Origin: Branchiostoma floridae
Taxonomy: Eukaryota; Chordata; Leptocardii; Amphioxiformes; Branchiostomatidae
NCBI RefSeq assembly: GCF_000003815.2
Contig: NC_049983.1
Coordinates: 8,707,943 to 8,771,942, forward strand
DNA length: 64,000 nucleotides
Reading direction: 5' to 3'
Position 1 is the stretch's first letter. Every line of letters starts with the position of its first letter. Below the pieces are notes generated by a model, which was given only the letters and a program-made list of their open reading frames with translations, had not been told where the DNA came from and did no database searches. The position numbers and the translations under genes are program-made. Below, piece by piece: positions 1 through 63,331 of this stretch.

Positions 1-556
1 GGGGGGTAACCGCTAACGCTAAATGAGCCTTTCGATAAAGCAAAAAGCGTCCCCTTGCGATTGGACTTACTAATTTTCAAACAAAATGTGCGTTACTTTC
101 TACACGTGAATATCATAGTAAAACGCGTTGGCAGAAGGTAGAAAGTTATTTGAGTACCAAAAATTTGACTTTTCTAGACACGAATGAAAGGCTCACCTCG
201 GGGGTAACCGCTAACGCTAAATGAACCTTTCGGTAACCGCAAAAAGCGACCACTTACGATTGGACTTACAAATTTTCAAACAAAATGTGCGTTACTTTCA
301 ACACGTGAATATCATAGTAAAACACGTTGGCAGAAGGTAGAAAGTTATTTGAGTACCAAAAATTACTTTTTGACTTTTCTACACACGAATGAATGGCTCA
401 CATTGGGGGTAACCGCTAACGCTAAATGAACCTTTCGGTAACCGCAACAAGCGACCCATTACGATTGGACTTACAAATTTTCAAACAAAATGTGCGTTAC
501 TTTCCACAACCTTGATTTATATCATTAAGTAAAACACGTTGGATGAAGTAGAAAGT

Positions 557-824
557 NNNNNNNNNNNNNNNNNNNNNNNNNNNNNNNNNNNNNNNNNNNN
601 NNNNNNNNNNNNNNNNNNNNNNNNNNNNNNNNNNNNNNNNNNNNNNNNNNNNNNNNNNNNNNNNNNNNNNNNNNNNNNNNNNNNNNNNNNNNNNNNNNNN
701 NNNNNNNNNNNNNNNNNNNNNNNNNNNNNNNNNNNNNNNNNNNNNNNNNNNNNNNNNNNNNNNNNNNNNNNNNNNNNNNNNNNNNNNNNNNNNNNNNNNN
801 NNNNNNNNNNNNNNNNNNNNNNNN
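557..824. other. assembly gap (N run) inside the satellite
   Basis: 268 unresolved bases. The flanks are both satellite units, so the missing bases are very likely more of the same array. Confidence 0.98.
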
Positions 825-2069
825 GTAACCGCTAACGCTAAATGAACCTTTCGGTAACCGCAAAAAGCGACCCCTTACGATTGGACTTACAAATTTTCAA
901 CCAAAATGTGCGTTACTTTCCACACTTGAATATCATAGTAAAACACGTTGGCAGAAGGTAGAAAGTTATTTGAGTACCAAAAATTACTTTGTGACTTTTC
1001 TAGACACGAATGAAAGGTTCACCTGGGGGGTAACCGCTAACGCTAAATGAACCTTTCGGTAACCGCAACAAGCGACCCCTTACGATTGGACTTACAATTT
1101 TCAACAAAATGTGCGTTACTTTCACACTTGAATATCATAGTAAAACACGTTGGCAGAAGGTAGAAAGTTATTTGAGTACCAAAAATTACTTTGTGACTTT
1201 TGTAGACACAAATGAAAGGCTCACCTGGGGGGTAACCGCTAACGCTAAATGAACCTTTCGATAAAGCAAAAAGCGACCCCTTACGATTGGACTTACAAAT
1301 TTTCAAACAAAATGTGCGTTACTTTCAACAATTGAATATCATAGTAAAACACGTTGGATGAAGGTAGAAAGTTATTTGAGTACCAAAAATTACTTGGTGA
1401 CTTTTCTAGACACGAATGAAAGGCTCACCTGGGTGGTACCCGCTAACGCTAAATGAACCTTTCGGTAACCGCAAAAAGCGACCCCTTACGATTGGATTTA
1501 CAAATTTTCAAACAAAATGTGCGTTACTTTCAACACTTGAATATCATAGTAAAACACGTTGGCAGAAGGTAGAAAGTTATTTGAGTACCAAAAATTACTT
1601 TGTGACTTTTGTAGACACGACTGAGAGGCTCACCTGGGTGGTAACCGCTAACGCTAAATGAACCTTTCGGTAACCGCAACAAGCGACCCCTTACGATTGG
1701 ACTTACAAATTTTCAAACAAAATGTGCGTTACTTTCAACACTTGAATATCATAGTAAAACACGTTGGCAGAAGGTAGAAAGTCATTTGAGTACCAAAAAT
1801 TACTTTGTGACTTTTGTAGACACGAATGAAAGGCTCTCCTGTGGGGCAACCGCTACAATAATGACCCTTTCGGTACCGCAACAAGCGACCCCTTACGATT
1901 GGACTTACAAATTTTCAACCCAAATGTGCCGTACTTTCAACACTTGAATATCATAGTAAAACACGTTGGCAGAAGGTAGAAAGTTATTTGAGTACCAAAA
2001 ATAACTTTGTGACTTTTCTAGACACGAATGAAAGGCTCACCTGGGGGGTAACCGCTATGCTAATGAACC

Positions 2070-2304
2070 NNNNNNNNNNNNNNNNNNNNNNNNNNNNNNN
2101 NNNNNNNNNNNNNNNNNNNNNNNNNNNNNNNNNNNNNNNNNNNNNNNNNNNNNNNNNNNNNNNNNNNNNNNNNNNNNNNNNNNNNNNNNNNNNNNNNNNN
2201 NNNNNNNNNNNNNNNNNNNNNNNNNNNNNNNNNNNNNNNNNNNNNNNNNNNNNNNNNNNNNNNNNNNNNNNNNNNNNNNNNNNNNNNNNNNNNNNNNNNN
2301 NNNN
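2070..2304. other. assembly gap (N run) inside the satellite
   Basis: 235 unresolved bases with satellite units on both sides. Confidence 0.98.
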
Positions 2305-3540
2305 GATTGGACTTACAAATTTTCAACCAAAATGTGCGTTACTTTCAACACTTGAATATCATAGTAAAACACGTTGGCAGAAGGTAGAAAGTTATTTGAG
2401 TACCAAAAATTACTTTGTGACTTTTCTAGACACAAATGAAAGGCTCGCCTGGGGGGTAACCGCTAACGCTAAATGAACCTTTCGGTAACCGCAACAAGCG
2501 ACCCCTTACGATTGGACTTACAAATTTTCAAGCAAAATGTGCGTTACTTTCCACACTTGAATATCATAGTAAAACACGTTGGCAGAAGGTAGAAAGTTTT
2601 TTGAGTACCAAAAATTACTTTGTGACTTTTCTAGACACGAATGAAAGGCTCACCTGGGGGGGTAACCGCTAATGCTAAATGAACCTTTCGGAAACCACAA
2701 CAAGCGACCCCTTACGATTGGACTTACAAATTTTCAACCAAAATGTGCGTTACTTTCCACACTTGAATATCATAGTAAAACACGTTGGCAGAAGGTAGAA
2801 AGTTATTTGAGTACCAAAAATTACTTTGTGACTTTTCTAGACACGAATGAAAGGCTCACCTGGGGGGTAACCGCTAATGCTAAATGAACCTTTCGGAAAC
2901 CGCAACAAGCGACCCCTTACGATTGGACTTACAAATTTTCAACCAAAATGTGCGTTACTTTCAACACTTGAATATCATAGTAAAACACGTTGGCAGAAGG
3001 TAGAAAGTTATTTGAGTACCAAAAATTACTTTGTGACTTTTCTAGACACGAATGAAAGGCTCACCTGGGGGGGGGGGGGAACCGCTAACGCTAAATGAAC
3101 CTTTCGGTAACCGCAAAAAACGACCCCTTACGATAGGACTTACAAATTTTTCAAGAAAATGTGCGTTACTTTCAACACTTGAATATCATAGTAAAACACG
3201 TTGGCAGAAGGTAGAAAGTTATTTGAGTACCAAAAATTACTTTGTGACTTTTCTAGACACGAATGAAAGGCTCACCTGGGGGGTAACCGCTAACGCTAAA
3301 TGAACCTTAGCTCTAGCGGATAGGTGCATTTGAAATGCTAAATTTCGTGTCATATTTTTTATTGCCTAACAAACGTATCACTGCAATAGAAAGCAAAACT
3401 CAAAATAATACTTTGTTTTGATTTAATATTGCGGACATAAATAATGTGTGTTTTTACTCTCCAATCAGAGGTTGGTGGAAAAAATCGTGACCTTTTCCTT
3501 TCATCCGTTTTTAATTATTGACCTTTCCACGAAAACTAGC

Positions 3541-5223: not shown

Positions 5224-7001
5224 CTGGTAGAGATGGTCGCTAGATAGCTGGGGTGCGCCTCCTCCAATTGAAACCCCAAATAAACTGATACCTATGGGTT
5301 CTCTTTAGATTCAATAAGCGCATTTGTTAAGAAGTGATGATTGAGAATCACAGAATGGGTGATCTAGTAATAGAGAACATTGGTAAAGATCGTTTGAAAA
5401 TTTGTTTTTCCCAGTTAGAAGAAAGCCTGTAGTATCGGCCTCTCGTGATTACGCCCCCCCAACCCACCCCACACACATATAATGATAGAGTCGTTCTGTC
5501 GTGCCCGGCCGCTTGTTCCCGGCTGTGGTGCCCACATATGGCTGGAACCGGGAGCACTCCTTCCCCAGATGCATATTCAGGCTTTCTTACGGTATGCGAA
5601 TAGCGCCTTCTATCGGCGGTCATTGTACAACCATGAATTGAAAAAAATGTTTTGCAGGAATCAATATCAGAACAAACATTTAACATATGCATATCAATAG
5701 GTCATTTGTTATTTCACTTTGCACCATTGTATGTTTCTTTCTGATGAGAACCTCGTAAGATGTCAGACAGAACTTGTCGTTCCATGGTGATGTACCATAA
5801 ATATTCACTAGGCGGCGCTTCAGTACCGTCCAATTGCTCGGCATTGACGGACATGATCGTATCATTGCTAGTTCAGATAAACAATATTGAAACCCGCAAC
5901 TTTGTCACTAATACGTTAGAGACATGTTAATATACTCTACATAGGACTCACAACAAGAACTGTTCAAGTCATGGCTGCATACTGCACCGTGTACTAAAAC
6001 AGCTCCGTAATCATGCATCAGTCCCATGGAATGTCCATGGCATCTGTCCTTGGTGCTGAATAAGGTATTAGTTACCAGCATTCATGTCAATTATGATTAT
6101 CTACTCCTCGCTTCACTATATACTATCACATAGATGATGCCAATACACTAGCATTCTTCAAGTGTCTGTAGGCTAGTAAAGGTCACTCGCACACTTTGGG
6201 CCTGAAACGAGATGTCATACAGATAAGAGACACTTGTGCGTAATCGACACACGTTGCAGCATTCCGAAATAAAAATTGCATCTTTTGATGTACAAACCGA
6301 CGGAAACACCGTGGTATTTTCTCTATGTCGCCTTATTTCACAATAAGTATTTGTCAATATTTCACAAACTATTGCAATTTGGACGTGGTACGTTGTACCC
6401 CTTCAAAATTTTGACCATGATGTACGTAGCAAATATCATTCAGAAAATCCACCTATACACGTTTATGAAATGAGGTGAATGGCAGATTAAGATTATTTAG
6501 CGTTATGAAATGAAATTTAGTCAAAGGAAGCCAAATATTAATATTAAAATTTCCAAATGAATTGCCGTTTCAACCAAGAAGCCATACAAAAAAACAACAG
6601 TAGTGCTAAGTGTGAGTCGATGTAAGTTCTGATACCACAGTGAAGATGCAGATCAGAATGAAAGGACCGAAAATTTATTTATTAGATGAAATCATGTCAC
6701 TGGTGGTAGCAAAGAATGGACAGGAAATACCTTTTTCAATGTATTTTTTAATGAAAGTTAGGTACAACGGTGTCATTACAATGCACAGTTGAAATCTCGG
6801 TCACGTGTACGCCAGGTGGAGAACATGTGAAGTAGGGTGCAAAGGTCACGGTCATAGGTCGTTACCTTGGCTTTGTAGCATGTGACCGAAAGTCAGCAGA
6901 AAGTAAATGTTTAGAGTACCACGCACAGTACGTTCCATATTGTGTGACGGACGAACGCATCGTATCATCTTAGATACATTTTTGACAAAGCATCAAACAC
7001 G
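5224..7001. other. intergenic, nothing recognised
   Basis: No ORF here has recognisable family motifs and no clear inverted or tandem repeat was found apart from a C-rich tract near 5453-5470. The last few hundred bases presumably hold the promoter and 5' UTR of the TRIM gene. Confidence 0.5.
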
Positions 7002-7988
7002 ATGGCGAGTAAGTTTCAAGCCTCAGATGACTTTGACGACCAGTTCCTGACGTGCCCAGTCTGTGTGTTACACTTCCGGGATCCCAGAATCCTGCCATGT
7101 CTGCACACATTTTGTAAGGGGTGTCTGGAAGAATGGGTCACCAAACAACAGCCGCTGGAGTGTCCAACCTGCCGCACACAGGTCAGTCTACCAGACCAAG
7201 GTGTGGACGGACTCAGGGCCAACTTCTACGTCAACAACCTGCTGGACTTCGCGGCGGCCAAGAAAGGGGCGGAGCCGGGCGTGCCGTGCCAGGTGTGCGA
7301 GGGAAATATGGAGGGATCAAAGTCTTGGTGTGCGGACTGCGCCATGTTGATGTGTGACTCTTGCACACTGTTACACCGAAAGTTTCCATCTTCGAAAGAT
7401 CACGAAGTCACCACAGAAGAGACTCTAAAGGCAGAGGAGGGTAGAAGCAAATTTCATCGCAAACGACACTGCGACAAACACAAGAAGTATGAACTGGAAT
7501 TCTACTGTGAGGTCTGCAAGACTTTGGTCTGTACCGCATGCACCGTGGTCGACCATCGGCCGGGCAAAGATCACAATCTGGTAGAAATCGCTACCGTTGC
7601 TCAGAGAAAGAAAGATACGCTACAAGGACTGCTGCAAGACATAGACCCGCGTCTGAAGGAAATAGAGGCCTCTGTCAAGGAAGTTGAAAGAAATATGTCA
7701 AACTTAATGCCTTCGAGAGAAGAAGCCACAAACCAAGCCAACGCATATTTCAACAAACTTGTTGACCTTCTGCGAGAGCGTGAAAAGCAATTCGTCATCC
7801 AGATTGACGAACAATGCCGAGCCGACGGCAAAGCTCTACAGACAAAGAAGGAAGCGATAGAGTTCGAGTTGGTCGGACTGACGAGTGCACGAACGTTCTG
7901 TCAACAAGCTGTAGAACACGGAAGTGACGTACACGTTGTGGAGGTGGGGCAAAAAGTACGGCATAAGACGCTACTCTACGGAAGGTAA
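7002..7988 (+). CDS. TRIM-family RING/B-box/coiled-coil protein, N-terminal half of a TRIM-NHL gene
   Basis: TRIM proteins are usually RING E3 ubiquitin ligases. This single-exon frame has a RING finger (C18, C21, C33, H35, C38, C41, C54, C57), B-box 1 (C96, C99, C110, C113, C118, C121, H125, H134), B-box 2 (C157, H160, C169, C172, C177, C180, H185, H191) and a charged coiled coil from about residue 200 to 300. The start ATG follows an untranslated leader and precedes the RING by 17 residues, as is usual. The frame stops at 7988, just after the coiled coil, while NHL repeats continue at once in another frame. So either the gene is damaged or the assembly has an indel or deletion. The TRIM2/3/71/56-like NHL class is the best fit; no single vertebrate orthologue can be named. 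Confidence 0.9.
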   Translation: MASKFQASDDFDDQFLTCPVCVLHFRDPRILPCLHTFCKGCLEEWVTKQQPLECPTCRTQVSLPDQGVDGLRANFYVNNLLDFAAAKKGAEPGVPCQVCEGNMEGSKSWCADCAMLMCDSCTLLHRKFPSSKDHEVTTEETLKAEEGRSKFHRKRHCDKHKKYELEFYCEVCKTLVCTACTVVDHRPGKDHNLVEIATVAQRKKDTLQGLLQDIDPRLKEIEASVKEVERNMSNLMPSREEATNQANAYFNKLVDLLREREKQFVIQIDEQCRADGKALQTKKEAIEFELVGLTSARTFCQQAVEHGSDVHVVEVGQKVRHKTLLYGR

Positions 7989-8508
7989 ACTTCTGAACAC
8001 GTTCCAGCCGGACTGTATGAAACATCCACTCGGAGTTGCAGTTCTGCAGGACGGCCGCATGGTGGTGGCGGACAACAAACAGAAGTCGTGTCTCCTCCTT
8101 CAGCCTGACGGCAGCCTCATCCGGGAGATCGGCAAGGGGCAGTTACGCAGCCCGTACTTCGTGTCGGTAGACGAGTCGCGTGATGTGTTGTTCGTCACAG
8201 ACAACAGCGCACACAAAGTATTCGCGTTCAACCTTGGCGGGAAATTGTTGTTTGACTTTGGCAAGCAAGGGGACAATGATGGCGAGATGAAAAATCCCCA
8301 CTGCGTAAGGGTAGACCCGGCAGGTAACGTCATTGTGGGTAACGCCGGTGACGGCCGTGTGCAAGTGTTTCGTCCTGACAGGACTTTTAAACAGAAAGTG
8401 GCAACAGTTGAAGGTGGCTATGCTAGTGGAATCGCTCTTACTCCTGATGGTAACATAGTTGTGGCATGCTCCCAGGGACATTGTATGGAAATTTACATGT
8501 ACAAGTGA
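7945..8508 (+). pseudogene. NHL-repeat C-terminus of the TRIM gene, out of frame with its N-terminus
   Basis: The frame ending at 8508 encodes about four NHL beta-propeller blades after RRYSTEGKLLNTF. The blade starts are HPLGVAV..GRMVVAD, SPYFVSV..DVLFVTD, NPHCVRV..GNVIVG and ASGIAL..GNIVVA. NHL propellers in this family usually have six blades and are often preceded by a filamin domain; those parts are missing. The jump from coiled coil to mid-propeller, with a frame change between about 7930 and 7985, suggests an internal deletion. No usable intron fits: the only GT-AG pair spans about 24 nt. The MTYTLW start at 7924 lies in the overlap and is probably not a real initiator. Confidence 0.8.
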
Positions 8509-57309: not shown

Positions 57310-59356
57310 AATGGGTCCAGATGTGTGTGCTCAGATTTGGGAAAATACATAAAAAGCTACAATGTAACACCTCACAGTTGTCTGTTTTTGTGTACTTTGC
57401 ATTTGTCATTTTTACTCAGTTATTATGAGGTTACAAATGGCCAAGAACACCACTGGGAAGGGATAAAATTTGGACAGGTGTTCACTATTCTTAATGCTTG
57501 TGTTAATGAGGAAAATAATCTAACGGACCACCAAAAATGGTCATTGGTCACAGCCTGGTTTGTAGTACAGTTGTAAACTGTGTTGAAGTCCAGTTTTGAA
57601 AGCTGATCCTGGTAACTACATACTGTAATTCCTGATTTTTTCAATGTACTGTTATGTTCACGGTTTTCACGCTGACGACTGTAACGTGAACTTATCATTA
57701 CTGATAACAAATAATTCACAGCTTTTTTTTTTATGTGCACTCGCCGCAACAGTGAACATTTAGCTGAGAACAAGTTAAATTTTCTCAGACCATGAAAGTT
57801 TGGTACAGAGAAGACAAAGTGAATTACAGTATCTGAGATCTATTGGCTCTTTCAACTAAAAGCAAATTCAGTATATTCATACCTCACAGCACATTCCTTT
57901 AATGGAAAATCTTGAAGGTAGAAGTCTGTATAAACAAATCACTGCAATACATTATTCACTACAGTCATTAAGACTAAGAAAGGCATTTATAATGGGAGAT
58001 CCCAAACCTGCTTGTGAACATATAAAAAATACATCTACCCCGTTATATGATCTGACTGACCATAATGAAATGACCAGGAAACAAAAAGTGTTGAAATGTA
58101 TTTGTAATAATATTCAGTCTGGTGGTATTGCATTCAGAATTCCTAACGCCACTTCAAGTGTACCTGTAATAAAAAAAACACCTTTCCCAGTAATGCACCC
58201 AAATAAATGGATTTTTACCACAACATTACAATACCTGTACTAAACCAACATTAATGCACCCAGTATTACACAGTTAATGTCAGAGTTATAAACGGTAGAT
58301 GAAATTGCTAGTCACCAAATACAAATAAGTGTTAAAAACTGCTGCGTACATCGAGTCCCGCCAATCATACTTCTAGTGGTCTACAGACAAAATGTTTTCA
58401 CATGATGATATTTCCACAGTACAATACAGAAGTTAGCGGGAAGTCCCAAGTGACGAAAGCAGAATGAAAATTGAAATGATCAATTTTCTAACTTTGCCAA
58501 ACATCACATTGTAGTTGCAGTGACATGGAATACATGTATGTAAAGAGAAAGTTATAATTCAATGAAGAGATAACGATAAAATTGCTTTGAAGAAAGTGAC
58601 CCCCCCCCCCCCCACACACACTGCAGTGAGGATAGTCTAGAGCATCCAGAAAAAATTATTTGATTGTGAAGATACTGACTTGAATTTGACATCTCACTGA
58701 TGGTTTTGAATTAGCCACAATTTTTCCTCCATGATTATCAAATAAACTGCCCAAGTACACAACAAAATCAAAGAACAACTATTCACATGAAAGTGGTAAA
58801 AGTCAATTTTTAATGTTGTCTACTTCGTGCCAAATTGTTGGAACCATGATGTTTGGATTCAATCTGTGTATCTTTATATCCACTTTGGAAAAGCACAACT
58901 TCTATTACATAAACAATGTAACAGGTATCCATATATACAAACATAGAGCAACACAAACTTCATTGAATGGATGACATTGCATTTATACTGGCCAGTCTGA
59001 AAATATAAATGGCTTCTCTCAAAACAGGAACTTATGCAACATAACAATGCTTTCACAGCAGCAACAACATTGTAGTTGCAGGACATGTAGTTCTTTTCGT
59101 CCCTTTATATGCTGTACAGTATGAAACTGAGAGACTACATTATATGTAACACATCACCACCATAAAGTGATCTATAGTGATGTAATGTATTTGCAAAATA
59201 TTGCTTTTTCATGTATTAAAATGACCTTTTAAGCTTGCACTTTCCCTCATGAATTTATATCAAGAATATCCATAAGATGTTATCCATAATATCAAGTTTG
59301 TGTAACCTACGAACATAGAATTGTACAATTTAAGCATAGAAAAGGCACAGAGAACA
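57310..59356. other. convergent intergenic region between RPL18A and the Rab gene
   Basis: AT-rich, with a C run and CA repeat at 58602-58620. A 113-codon frame at 57902-58243 has no recognisable features. No poly(A) signal pair could be assigned with confidence. Confidence 0.5.
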
Positions 59357-62300
59357 TCAGCTTCCACAGCAGCTCCTCCCTTCCTTCGCCTGCCTGACGT
59401 TGTCCTTGAGTTTGATGTGTCCTCCCTCAGCTTCTGTCTCCATGTTCCGCTGGGGCTGTGTGTCAGTGTGTCTGGCCAGGATTTCTTCAAGGAGGAAACT
59501 ACAGGCACAAAGGTTACATGTAAGTTACAAGGCAATCAGTGACGGCAGACTTCACCACCTTACTTATACTGGTTTGTCTACATGTTCCTCTGGGGCTGTG
59601 TGTCAGTGTGTCTGGCCAGGATTTCTTCCAGGAAGAAACTACAGGCACAAAGGTTACATGTAAGTTACAAGGCAATCAGTGACGGCAGACTTCACCACCT
59701 TGCTTATACTGTTTTGTGACCCGTCCATTCCCAATTAGTCTCTATGTTCCTCTGGGGCTGTGTCAGTGTGTCTGGCCAGGATTTCTTCCAGGAGGAAACT
59801 ACAGGCACAAAGGATAGGTTACAAGGCAATCAGTGACGGCAGACTTCACCACCTTACTTATACTGGTTTGTCTACATGTTCCTCTGGGGCTGTGTCAGTG
59901 TGTCTGGCCAGGATTTCTTCCAGGAGGAAACTACAGGCACAAAGGATAGGTTACAAGGCAATCAGTGACGTCAGACTTCACCACCTTACTTATACTGGTT
60001 TGTCTACATGTTCCTCTGGGGCTGTGTCAGTGTGTCTGGCCAGGATTTCTTCCAGGAGGAAACTACAGGCACAAAGGATAGGTTACAAGGCAATCAGTGA
60101 CGGCAGACTTCACCACCTTGCTTATACTGTTTTGTGACCCGTCCATTCCCAATTAGTCTCTATGTTCCTCTGGGGCTGTGTCAGTGTGTCTGGCCAGGAT
60201 TTCTTCCAGGAGGAAACTACAGGCACAAAGGATAGGTTACAAGGCAATCAGTGATGGCAGACTTCACCACCTTACTTATACTGGTTTGTCTACATGTTCC
60301 TCTGGGGCTGTGTCCGTGTGTCTGGCCAGGATTTCTTCCAGGAGGAAACTACAGGCACAAAGGATAGGTTACAAGGCAATCAGTGATGGCAGACTTCACC
60401 ACCTTACTTATACTGGTTTGTCTACATGTTCCTCTGGGGCTGTGTCCGTGTGTCTGGCCAGGATTTCTTCCAGGAGGAAACTACAGGCACAAAGGTTACA
60501 AAAAAAAGTAAGTTACAAGGCAATCAGTGACGGCAGACTTCACCACCTTACTTATACTGTTTTGTGACCCATTGTTTCCAACTTAGTCTCCATGTCCCTC
60601 TGGGGCTGTGTCCGTGTGTCTGGCCAGGATTTCTTCCAGGAGGAAACTACAAGCACAAAGGATAGGTTACAAGGCAATCAGGGATGGCCGACTTCATTCC
60701 CTTGCCTATACTACTTTGGGACCCACCCAGTCCCACAGACTGAACAGCTGAGCACTAAGGAAGTGGTATCCAATGGCTAAGTGGTTAGGCTAGGACACAA
60801 GATCTAGATATAACAGGTTTGACTCCTGTCTAAATGTGTCATTGGGAAAAGCACTTTACATGACTCCCCTCTCTCCACCCAGATGTAAATATGGGTACCT
60901 GACTGTGGCTGAGAAATATAGGGTAGAAGGAAGAGACTCCACAAGCCACCTTTTATAACAGCCCCTTTAACTGTCTCAAAAGGCAATGGAAGTTACTCTG
61001 AGTTCCTTTTCTAGTGTGTGAGAGCGTAGCAACATAGAAAATGTATGACAACACTGTATTGTATATATAAAGAAGCAAGAGACACACAAAAAGGCCCAAA
61101 ACAATAGCTCACTTTCTAGAGGGAATTAACCAGAAACCATGATAGATAAATGTCACATAATTGCAGTGATACTATGCTAAGATGAAAAAGAACAATACCA
61201 ACTTACTTCATAGACTCCTTTACATTGACATTGTCCTTGACTGATATCTCTGTCCATCCTATAAAGTTGTGTTCCTTACAGAACTCATTTACTTCTTCCT
61301 CTGTCACCGCCTTTTCTTGTAAATCAATCTGAAAGTAGCAGAGGACAAATCTAAAACACAGTGTACAGAGTACAGTGAATATGATTGAGAAATACATGTA
61401 ACGTTACTAAGGCAACAATAAATGACCTAATTTATCAGAAAAATCATAATTTTATTCACCTGTATCAGCAAATAGCAAATAAGAATACTTGTTCACACAC
61501 ACAGATGGAAATGTTTACCAATATTACATACAAAACTTCATATAAAACACAGCACTCGCCTTATTTGCTAGCAGCATACAAGGTACACAACGCCCGTCAG
61601 GAAGAGACACTTTTGAATCTAAGTCCTTTTTCCACTTTATGCAATTGTGGAATGTCTGTTTGGCCGTTACGTCAAAGATGATGACACAAGCAGAGGCATC
61701 CTTGTAGTAAACTCTTGTCATCGACGTAAATCTCTCCTGGCCTGGAAGAAAGCATACACGTATGAATCACGCTTTACCCAGTGGCAAGATAGAGGCATTA
61801 AAATGCCTGTCTTCTTACAATGTTGTATGTCTGTCATAGAAACATGATTGCTGACAAATTAAGGTACATAATAGATTGTGGTACTAGTAGCTTGAGTATA
61901 TCCCACACCTAGTGGCCAGCCCTTCTGACAGGCCCCTAGTCCCTGGCAGCAAGAGACTTGGTGACATGAGCTTTAAGTAGCACAAGCTATCTGCATATGT
62001 TCTGTTTAAGTGTTTCACTATATACTAGCAATTGTCAGGAATAACTTTTTCTCACCTGCAACATCCCATAACTGCAATCAATGTTTTCATGATATGAAAA
62101 AAAGGAAAGAAAGAATGAACAGTTATTTTCAGCAATTGACCATTGATCCAGTTGATTACACCTACATGTAATGTTACATGCAATAATAACATTCTAACAG
62201 TATTAGAAGATTTTTAATTACCTTTAATAAACCATCAAAACTTATAAAAACATATAACGTTATATCTATATATGTATATGTGCTGGTATGATATCCATTA

Positions 62301-63331
62301 ATATTCTGTATCTTTTAATATCAAATATTGTTTCAAGCAAAACGATTTGTTATTCCCCATTTATCCGCACTGAGCAATGGCATAACGTCACATGTTTACA
62401 ATTACTTCCTCACCTGAAATCTAACTGTGTCTTCCTCTGATATTTGAATGACCTTAAGTGCAAAATCAACTGTGAAAAACAGAAAGGTACATATATGTTA
62501 TGAACAGTAGAATGATCAATCAATCAATCAGCACATGACATTTTGGCACATGATCATTCGTGCCAACATTGGAATTCAGCAGACAAATTTTCAAGTGATA
62601 TAAACCAATGAAATACAAACACAGAAAGCAGCAAAAGATCTAAAAGTACAACCACCCTTCAAATCCAGAGAGGTAATGTTGCGGTATGCCTAAACACCAC
62701 AAATGACCACGAGGTGTGGTTGTTTTTAGTCATTTGTGGTGTTTAGACAGGCCTGTAATGTTGGAAAAGATTTAACATTAAGTTCTTGGCTTAAATCATT
62801 CCACAACTAAGGACTGTATTCTGGTTACAATTAAGAGGACTGTATTTTGGTTACATTTAAGAAGACTGTATTTTGGTTACATTTAAGAAGACTGTATTTT
62901 GGTTACATTTAAGAAGACTGTATTTTGGTTACATTTAAGAGGACTGTACTTTGGTTACATTTAAGAGGACTGTATTTTGGTTACATTTAAGAGGACTGTA
63001 CTTTGGTTACATTTAAGAGGACTGTATTTTGGTTACATTTAAGAGGACTGTATTTTGGTTACAATTTGGAGACAATCAAAATGATACGTGATAAACACAG
63101 TCAAAACGATAAGGGTCTAGTAAATACAACTGCACTGCATAACCACAACCAATGAGGTTATATAACCTCCTTGCCACAACATACAAATCCATCGAAACCA
63201 GTCTTAAACCTACCTCCCACCGTCGCCTTGTACTCCCTTTTGAAGGAGTCGTTGACGTACCGCTGCACAAACGACGTCTTCCCGACGGTGGCGTCACCGA
63301 TTATCAGGATCTTAAAGAGTCGTTCTGTCAT
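59357..63331 (-). CDS. RAB29: Rab GTPase of the RAB29/RAB32/RAB38 subfamily, 6 exons
   Basis: Small GTPase; family members act at the trans-Golgi, endolysosomes and lysosome-related organelles, and RAB29 binds LRRK2. Exons: 63214-63331, 62414-62469, 62056-62071, 61560-61741, 61207-61328, 59357-59498; 636 nt, 211 aa. Motifs: P-loop GDATVGKTS (residues 12-20), switch I region YKATVGVDFALKV, switch II LWDVAGQERFTSMTR (V in place of the usual T after WD, as the WDIAG of this subfamily), LLANKIDL (NKxD), TEISVKDN, and a C-terminal KEGRSCCGS with paired cysteines for prenylation. FTSMTR, ASACVI and DLDSK resemble RAB29 (Rab7L1) more than RAB32/38, but a pro-orthologue of the group is possible. The intron after exon 4 appears to start with GC. 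The exon 6 acceptor region is amplified upstream (59499-60700). Confidence 0.9.
59430..60700 (-). repeat. nine-copy array of the Rab last-exon 3' splice site region, basic unit 132 bp
   Basis: CTGGCCAGGATTTCTTC begins at 59472 (the real exon 6), 59612, 59772, 59904, 60036, 60190, 60322, 60454 and 60620, giving spacings of 132 bp, or 140, 154, 160 and 166 bp where the linker differs. Each unit repeats about 55 bp of coding start plus the acceptor (minus strand TTGTGCCTGTAG then TTTCCTCCT). Because 132 is a multiple of three, long meaningless plus-strand frames run through the array. Units 2-9 lack the rest of exon 6 and its cysteines. Confidence 0.92.
60770..60935 (+). mobile_element. tRNA-derived SINE (copy 4)
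   Basis: Plus-strand head CAATGGCTAAGTGGTTAGGC (A-box-like), B-box-like GGTTTGACTCCTG, then TTGGGAAAAGCACTTTACA, CCACCCAGATGTAAATATGG and GTACCTGACTGTGGC. Same family as 25410-25588, opposite orientation. It lies beside the splice-acceptor array. Confidence 0.75.
62056..62071 (-). CDS. 16-nt microexon of the Rab gene (LWDVA-G)
   Basis: TTATGGGATGTTGCAG between a GATTGCAG acceptor and a GTGAGA donor. It supplies the invariant DxxG of switch II. It is the only segment that links exon 2 (phase 0) to exon 4 (phase 1). Confidence 0.88.
62687..62755. repeat. short palindrome, CCTAAACACCACAAATGAC arms
   Basis: GCCTAAACACCACAAATGAC pairs with GTCATTTGTGGTGTTTAGAC plus AGGC across a loop of about 25 bp. 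The flanks share GTAATGTTG (62672-62680 and 62756-62764 approximately), a possible target-site duplication. Confidence 0.7.
62812..63065. repeat. 26-bp minisatellite, about ten copies, in Rab intron 1
   Basis: GACTGTATTTTGGTTACATTTAAGA-type units recur every 26 bp (GACTGTA at 62812, 62838, 62864, 62890 and onwards) with few substitutions, mainly AAGAAG against AAGAGG. Confidence 0.95.

Follow-up and report, generated by a model that had tools for sequence, protein, structure and literature searches.

Minisatellites whose units span exon/intron boundaries, termed mirages, have been published for the lancelet Adh, globin, troponin C and PGBD5 genes (passages of PMC3087553 and PMC3902484). In BflGb6, a globin gene of Branchiostoma floridae, each unit of 150-160 bp combines the 3' end of an intron with the 5' part of an exon, and the units are 81-100% identical to each other. 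Haplotypes of this gene carry six or three units, and concerted evolution acts in the centre of the array while the edges are left out (all from passages of PMC3087553). The same passages state that the copies could serve as cryptic splice sites, and that Adh3 data together with the authors' own RT-PCR suggest no interference with regular splicing. For Adh and troponin C the mirages are said to generate no aberrant mRNAs, and normal splicing of PGBD5 is the inference of the authors (excerpts of PMC3902484).

Here we describe an array of this kind in a Rab29/Rab7L1-like gene of B. floridae. The window, i. e. the whole stretch of DNA that was analysed, comprises 64,000 nucleotides (NC_049983.1, positions 8,707,943 to 8,771,942 of the forward strand), and all positions below refer to it. 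Each tandem unit of the array holds an exon/intron boundary of the host gene, as the units of a mirage do.

The Rab29-like gene and its surroundings

The gene lies on the minus strand (59357..63331). Its six coding exons (63331-63214, 62469-62414, 62071-62056, 61741-61560, 61328-61207 and 59498-59357) form a spliced frame without internal stop, which encodes 211 aa and ends in SCCGS. That the host gene is RAB29-like, as the original prediction had it, was borne out by the comparison with solved structures: among the best 60 of 250 matches, Rab-7L1 chains took the top two places (best E 3.5e-69), with Rab-32 and Rab-38 next. The stretch WDVAGQERFTSMTRVYYKD, which we take to be switch II of the protein, contains no histidine. 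The protein is thus without the two switch II histidines that are the mark of Rab32LO according to passages of PMC4728774, a paper that covers lancelet Rab32/38 and Rab32LO. The FALK stretch, described in the same passages as common to Rab7L1, Rab32LO and Rab32/38, is present in the translation (VDFALKVIQ).

In the gene model the last intron (59499..61206, minus strand, 1708 nt) begins with the donor GAA/GTAAGT and ends at 59499 with the genuine acceptor CCTGTAG; the donor at 61207 and the acceptor at 59498, both proposed earlier, are consistent with this model. The genuine last coding exon (59357..59498, minus strand) is copy 9 of the array and the only copy with a CC-containing C-terminus downstream.

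Two further features of the gene were noted. Intron 4 starts with AAG/GCGAGT (61559-61554, minus strand) and looks like a GC-AG intron. A second minisatellite, which spans no boundary, is located in intron 1 (62810-63063, 26 bp x 9.8 copies by TRF).

Elsewhere in the window, exon matches to a Rab GDI gene run from 35446 to 20976 on the minus strand. This gene contains two tandem homologous exons on the minus strand, 27939-27805 (135 nt) and 27738-27598 (141 nt), which are 66 nt apart, open in the same frame and bordered by AG and GT. Judged by their sequence they are a candidate mutually exclusive pair; the term 'mutually exclusive exon' was absent among the literature matches listed for them. 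A 205-bp satellite occupies positions 2-3308, where TRF counts 2.7 and 12.1 copies and N runs lie at 557-824 and 2070-2304. Reading frames at 6948-8508 are presumably RING/B-box (TRIM-like) and NHL-repeat-like. The motifs TACATGT/ACATGTA are in 5-6 fold excess in the window, which, like its gene content, looks typical of a lancelet, and self-comparison revealed other local repeats besides the array of the Rab29-like gene.

Anatomy and turnover of the array

The array (59435..60738, minus strand, outer limits approximate) consists of nine units, each joining about 80 nt of the 3' end of the intron to about 55 nt of the start of the last exon. Nine tandem copies within the last intron had been predicted. 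The number is right; eight of the units lie in the distal part of the intron, and the ninth is the genuine boundary with exon +1 at 59498. All units are on the minus strand, and the limits given for copies 1 to 8 are approximate. Copy 1, the outermost and most diverged unit, extends over 60592..60738 (exon +1 at 60646). Copy 2 (60425..60590, exon +1 at 60480) is followed by copies 3 to 7 (59744..60424, exon +1 at 60348, 60216, 60062, 59930 and 59798) and by copy 8 (59575..59743, exon +1 at 59638). The acceptor reads CCTGTAG in eight of the nine copies and CTTGTAG in the outermost, so that its conservation is not quite the complete one claimed before.

From the outermost unit inward the spacings are 166, 132, 132, 154, 132, 132, 160 and 140 bp. 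The spacing of 132 bp, previously said to hold for most copies, thus applies to half of the eight steps. The junctions between the units are either long (L) or short (S, without 22 nt) and form the series L S S L S S L S. Because this series repeats every three units, TRF reports a period of 418 bp (3.0 copies, 93% matches, score 2126). When the region 59301-60800 was doublet-shuffled, none of 100 shuffles reached the TRF score threshold of 50; the array is not a chance product. Open frames also run through the array on the opposite (plus) strand, at 59739-60137 (132 codons) and 60157-60567 (136 codons); they profit from the length of the 132-bp unit, which is divisible by three.

The units are not equally similar to each other. 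When only substitutions in the shared part are counted, copies 3-7 share 97.4-99.1% identity with one another. Copies 2, 8 and 9 reach 94.9-97.4% against this group, and copy 1 has 87.2-92.3% identity to every other copy. With gap columns counted, the identity of copies 2, 8 and 9 to copies 3-7 is 87.6-91.2%; the lower value is mainly due to one length difference near the branch-point region. Copy 8 is 96.8% identical to the genuine boundary, and a tree of the units, built on few sites, groups copies 8 and 9 with copy 2. Hence the centre of the array is homogenised and the edges are excluded, clearly so for copy 1 and mildly for copies 2, 8 and 9, which is the usual sign of minisatellite turnover. 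The mildness of the divergence of copies 2, 8 and 9, seen with length differences left out, counts against a neutral reading.

Substitutions were also compared between the two parts of the unit. Across all nine copies, substitutions affect 4 of the 52 columns derived from the exon and 14 of the 79 derived from the intron (Fisher p = 0.12); without copy 1 the numbers are 4 of 52 and 6 of 79 (p = 1.0). As exon and intron parts vary equally once copy 1 is left out, there is no sign of selection on the decoy exons, i. e. the exon parts behind the eight upstream acceptors, in this small sample of 52 and 79 columns.

The number of copies could in part be an artefact of the assembly, by collapse, expansion or merging of haplotypes. 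Two stretches of 300 nt spaced 418 bp apart are 99% identical, and five runs of N occur in the window. Moreover, the repeat numbers of lancelet PGBD5 vary by assembly (passages of PMC3902484), and assembly errors affected the BflGb6 array in the draft (passages of PMC3087553). However, no run of N falls within the array, copies 1, 2, 6, 8 and 9 have private variants, and the whole three-unit blocks are just 91.5, 91.6 and 95.1% identical with gaps counted. We therefore regard a partly artefactual copy number as unlikely; it would be compatible with the explanation that we prefer.

This explanation, which we consider highly probable, is that the array is a young, unstable and mostly neutral mirage with a copy number that varies between haplotypes, and that its decoy acceptors are passive and little used, splicing being nearly always from 61207 to 59498. 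The original prediction had left three options side by side: soluble isoforms, a splicing decoy and neutral expansion. Neutral expansion fits best because in anatomy, and largely in turnover, the array matches the lancelet mirages, whose authors inferred regular splicing (as far as described in passages of PMC3087553 and PMC3902484), and because its exon-derived part shows no extra conservation without copy 1.

The array may have arisen through a first tandem duplication that joined exon sequence near GGAGAC to intron sequence near 60738 (GGGAC), with short microhomology at the junction. Later unequal exchange or slippage would have amplified both single units and three-unit blocks of 418 bp. 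Throughout, the array would have stayed intronic. By analogy with the published lancelet mirages, nearly all transcripts would join 61207 to 59498 and encode the regular, prenylated Rab29-like protein. The acceptors further upstream would be passive decoys, and their number is expected to differ between haplotypes.

Splice signals and coding outcome of the decoy acceptors

In eight of the nine copies the intron ends in the same 15 bases, from which copy 1 deviates by one C-to-T change. Thus the acceptor itself offers no feature that sets the genuine site apart. A branch-point-like GTAAC is found not more than 40 nt upstream of all nine acceptors. CTTAC, also branch-point-like, occurs within this distance only in copies 2, 8 and 9; copy 2 in addition has a T8 run. 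The pyrimidine fraction just upstream is 0.62 at the genuine site and in copy 8, 0.67 in copies 1 and 3-7, and 0.71 in copy 2. Accessibility of the RNA, considered as a discriminator, was rejected, as the genuine AG was not singled out in predictions with three flank sizes. For two of these three sizes, the genuine site had a weaker predicted local fold than any of the eight decoys. As far as sequence features can tell, the genuine acceptor appears no better than the decoys, and its winning, if it does win, would not be explained by local sequence. That the acceptor cores are near-identical and that the genuine site, together with copy 8, is lowest in pyrimidine counts against simple neutrality. 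The same is true of the position of the decoys, which lie upstream and hence are transcribed first.

Two other candidate roles of the array were tried and rejected. A reading as cassette exons would need donors, and the best donor-like site in the array, TAA/GTAAGG at six places, scores 2.8 bits, compared with 4.7-6.8 bits for the gene's own four GT donors (scored with a matrix of approximate frequencies). Premature polyadenylation was rejected since AATAAA and ATTAAA are absent from the array. The interval 58000-61206 contains no AATAAA and a single ATTAAA, at 58814 and outside the array; apart from the latter, the gene's own signal was also not seen.

If a decoy acceptor were used, the reading phase would be kept in all eight cases. 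The last exon then adds 20-24 codons (including the split codon) before a stop, and the products have 184-188 aa and no C-terminal cysteine pair, compared with 211 aa of the normal protein. This agrees with the original prediction of a stop within about 30 codons and no paired cysteines. The claim that all upstream copies enter the same residues is correct for seven of the eight decoys, which read FLLEEILARHTDT, and fails for copy 8, which reads FFLEEILARHTDT. The endings differ: VDKPV in four copies, EEHRD in two, and EGHGD and PQRNM in one each, the latter being that of copy 8, where the stop TAG follows QPQRNM. Most simply, a decoy transcript would continue through the remaining array as 3' UTR.

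The upstream acceptors could define alternative last exons of functional soluble Rab29-like isoforms, i. e. of non-prenylated GTPases of 184-188 aa. The preserved phase in all eight decoys, the missing cysteine pair and the intact acceptor cores are in line with this. Furthermore, because no strong donor follows the stops, decoy mRNAs would not have to undergo junction-dependent decay. Yet the exon-derived part is conserved no more than the intron part, copy 1 aside, four different endings are found among only eight decoys, and published mirages are thought to splice normally (passages of PMC3087553 and PMC3902484). The lack of AATAAA and ATTAAA in the array also speaks against such isoforms, albeit weakly, because no such signal is close to the genuine exon either. 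Taken together, functional soluble isoforms seem very unlikely.

Alternatively, the many acceptors could slow or divert the removal of the last intron and thereby tune expression, the output of the Rab29-like gene falling with the copy number. The intact acceptors, the branch-point-like motifs and the lack of a strong donor would suit such a decoy, and the literature appears to cover decoy exons that promote the retention of introns. However, there is no evidence of selection, and the copies have diverged in the way that a neutral minisatellite would be expected to. We thus consider expression tuning improbable. A more far-reaching proposal appears extremely unlikely to us: the array would serve as a store of functional 3' splice sites, variable in copy number, and would thereby determine how much Rab29-like protein is membrane-bound and how much is soluble, with the consequence that individuals differ in Rab dosage. 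The neutral mirage with passive decoys remains our preferred reading.

Comparison with known splice-site minisatellites

The original prediction also held that no Rab locus built in this way had been described. For Rab genes this may hold, and a Rab locus with a mirage may be unreported in the literature that we searched: a search for Rab29 in amphioxus found nothing, the word Rab is absent from the main text of the two mirage papers (PMC3087553, PMC3902484), and the paper on chordate Rab32/38 (PMC4728774) uses neither 'mirage' nor 'minisatellite'. The type of structure as such is already described in lancelet genes. Thus a Rab gene probably joins the loci with splice-site minisatellites, and it does so with more extra units than BflGb6. 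Nine near-identical competing acceptors at graded distances from one donor provide a natural test of how a spliceosome could choose the last acceptor over the first. For the globin genes, such repeats have been proposed as material for intron gain (passages of PMC3087553), and the Rab29-like array might serve in the same way.

Outside lancelets, genes in human segmental duplications have internal tandem repeats at exon-intron boundaries that likewise may change splicing. These repeats can reportedly give rise to novel introns, whereas the Rab29-like array shows nothing of this kind (comparison with passages of PMC2812944). Within lancelets, the 60-bp and 108-bp repeats of PGBD5 are, like the units described here, imperfect repeats over splice sites, and assemblies disagree on how many there are (2 or 7, and 3 or 6). 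In PGBD5 the first repeat of each array is said to abut a 5' splice site, whereas in the Rab29-like gene it is the 3' splice site that is repeated, nine times (PGBD5 data from passages of PMC3902484). The Adh3 mirages of B. floridae and B. lanceolatum also span exon-intron boundaries, and regular splicing is suggested there as well; they differ in having units of 10-72 bp and in the somatic instability reported for them (Canestro et al. 2002, as cited in passages of PMC3087553).

BflGb6 resembles the Rab29-like array in several respects (passages of PMC3087553). In both, the units span the 3' end of an intron and the 5' part of an exon, with a spacing of 132-166 bp here and units of 150-160 bp there. 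In both, splice signals are kept in many copies, the centre is homogenised and the edges are more diverged. In contrast to BflGb6, where the array involves exon 2 and has six and three units (same passages), the array described here belongs to a Rab gene, involves the last exon, contains eight extra units and has a higher-order period of three units.
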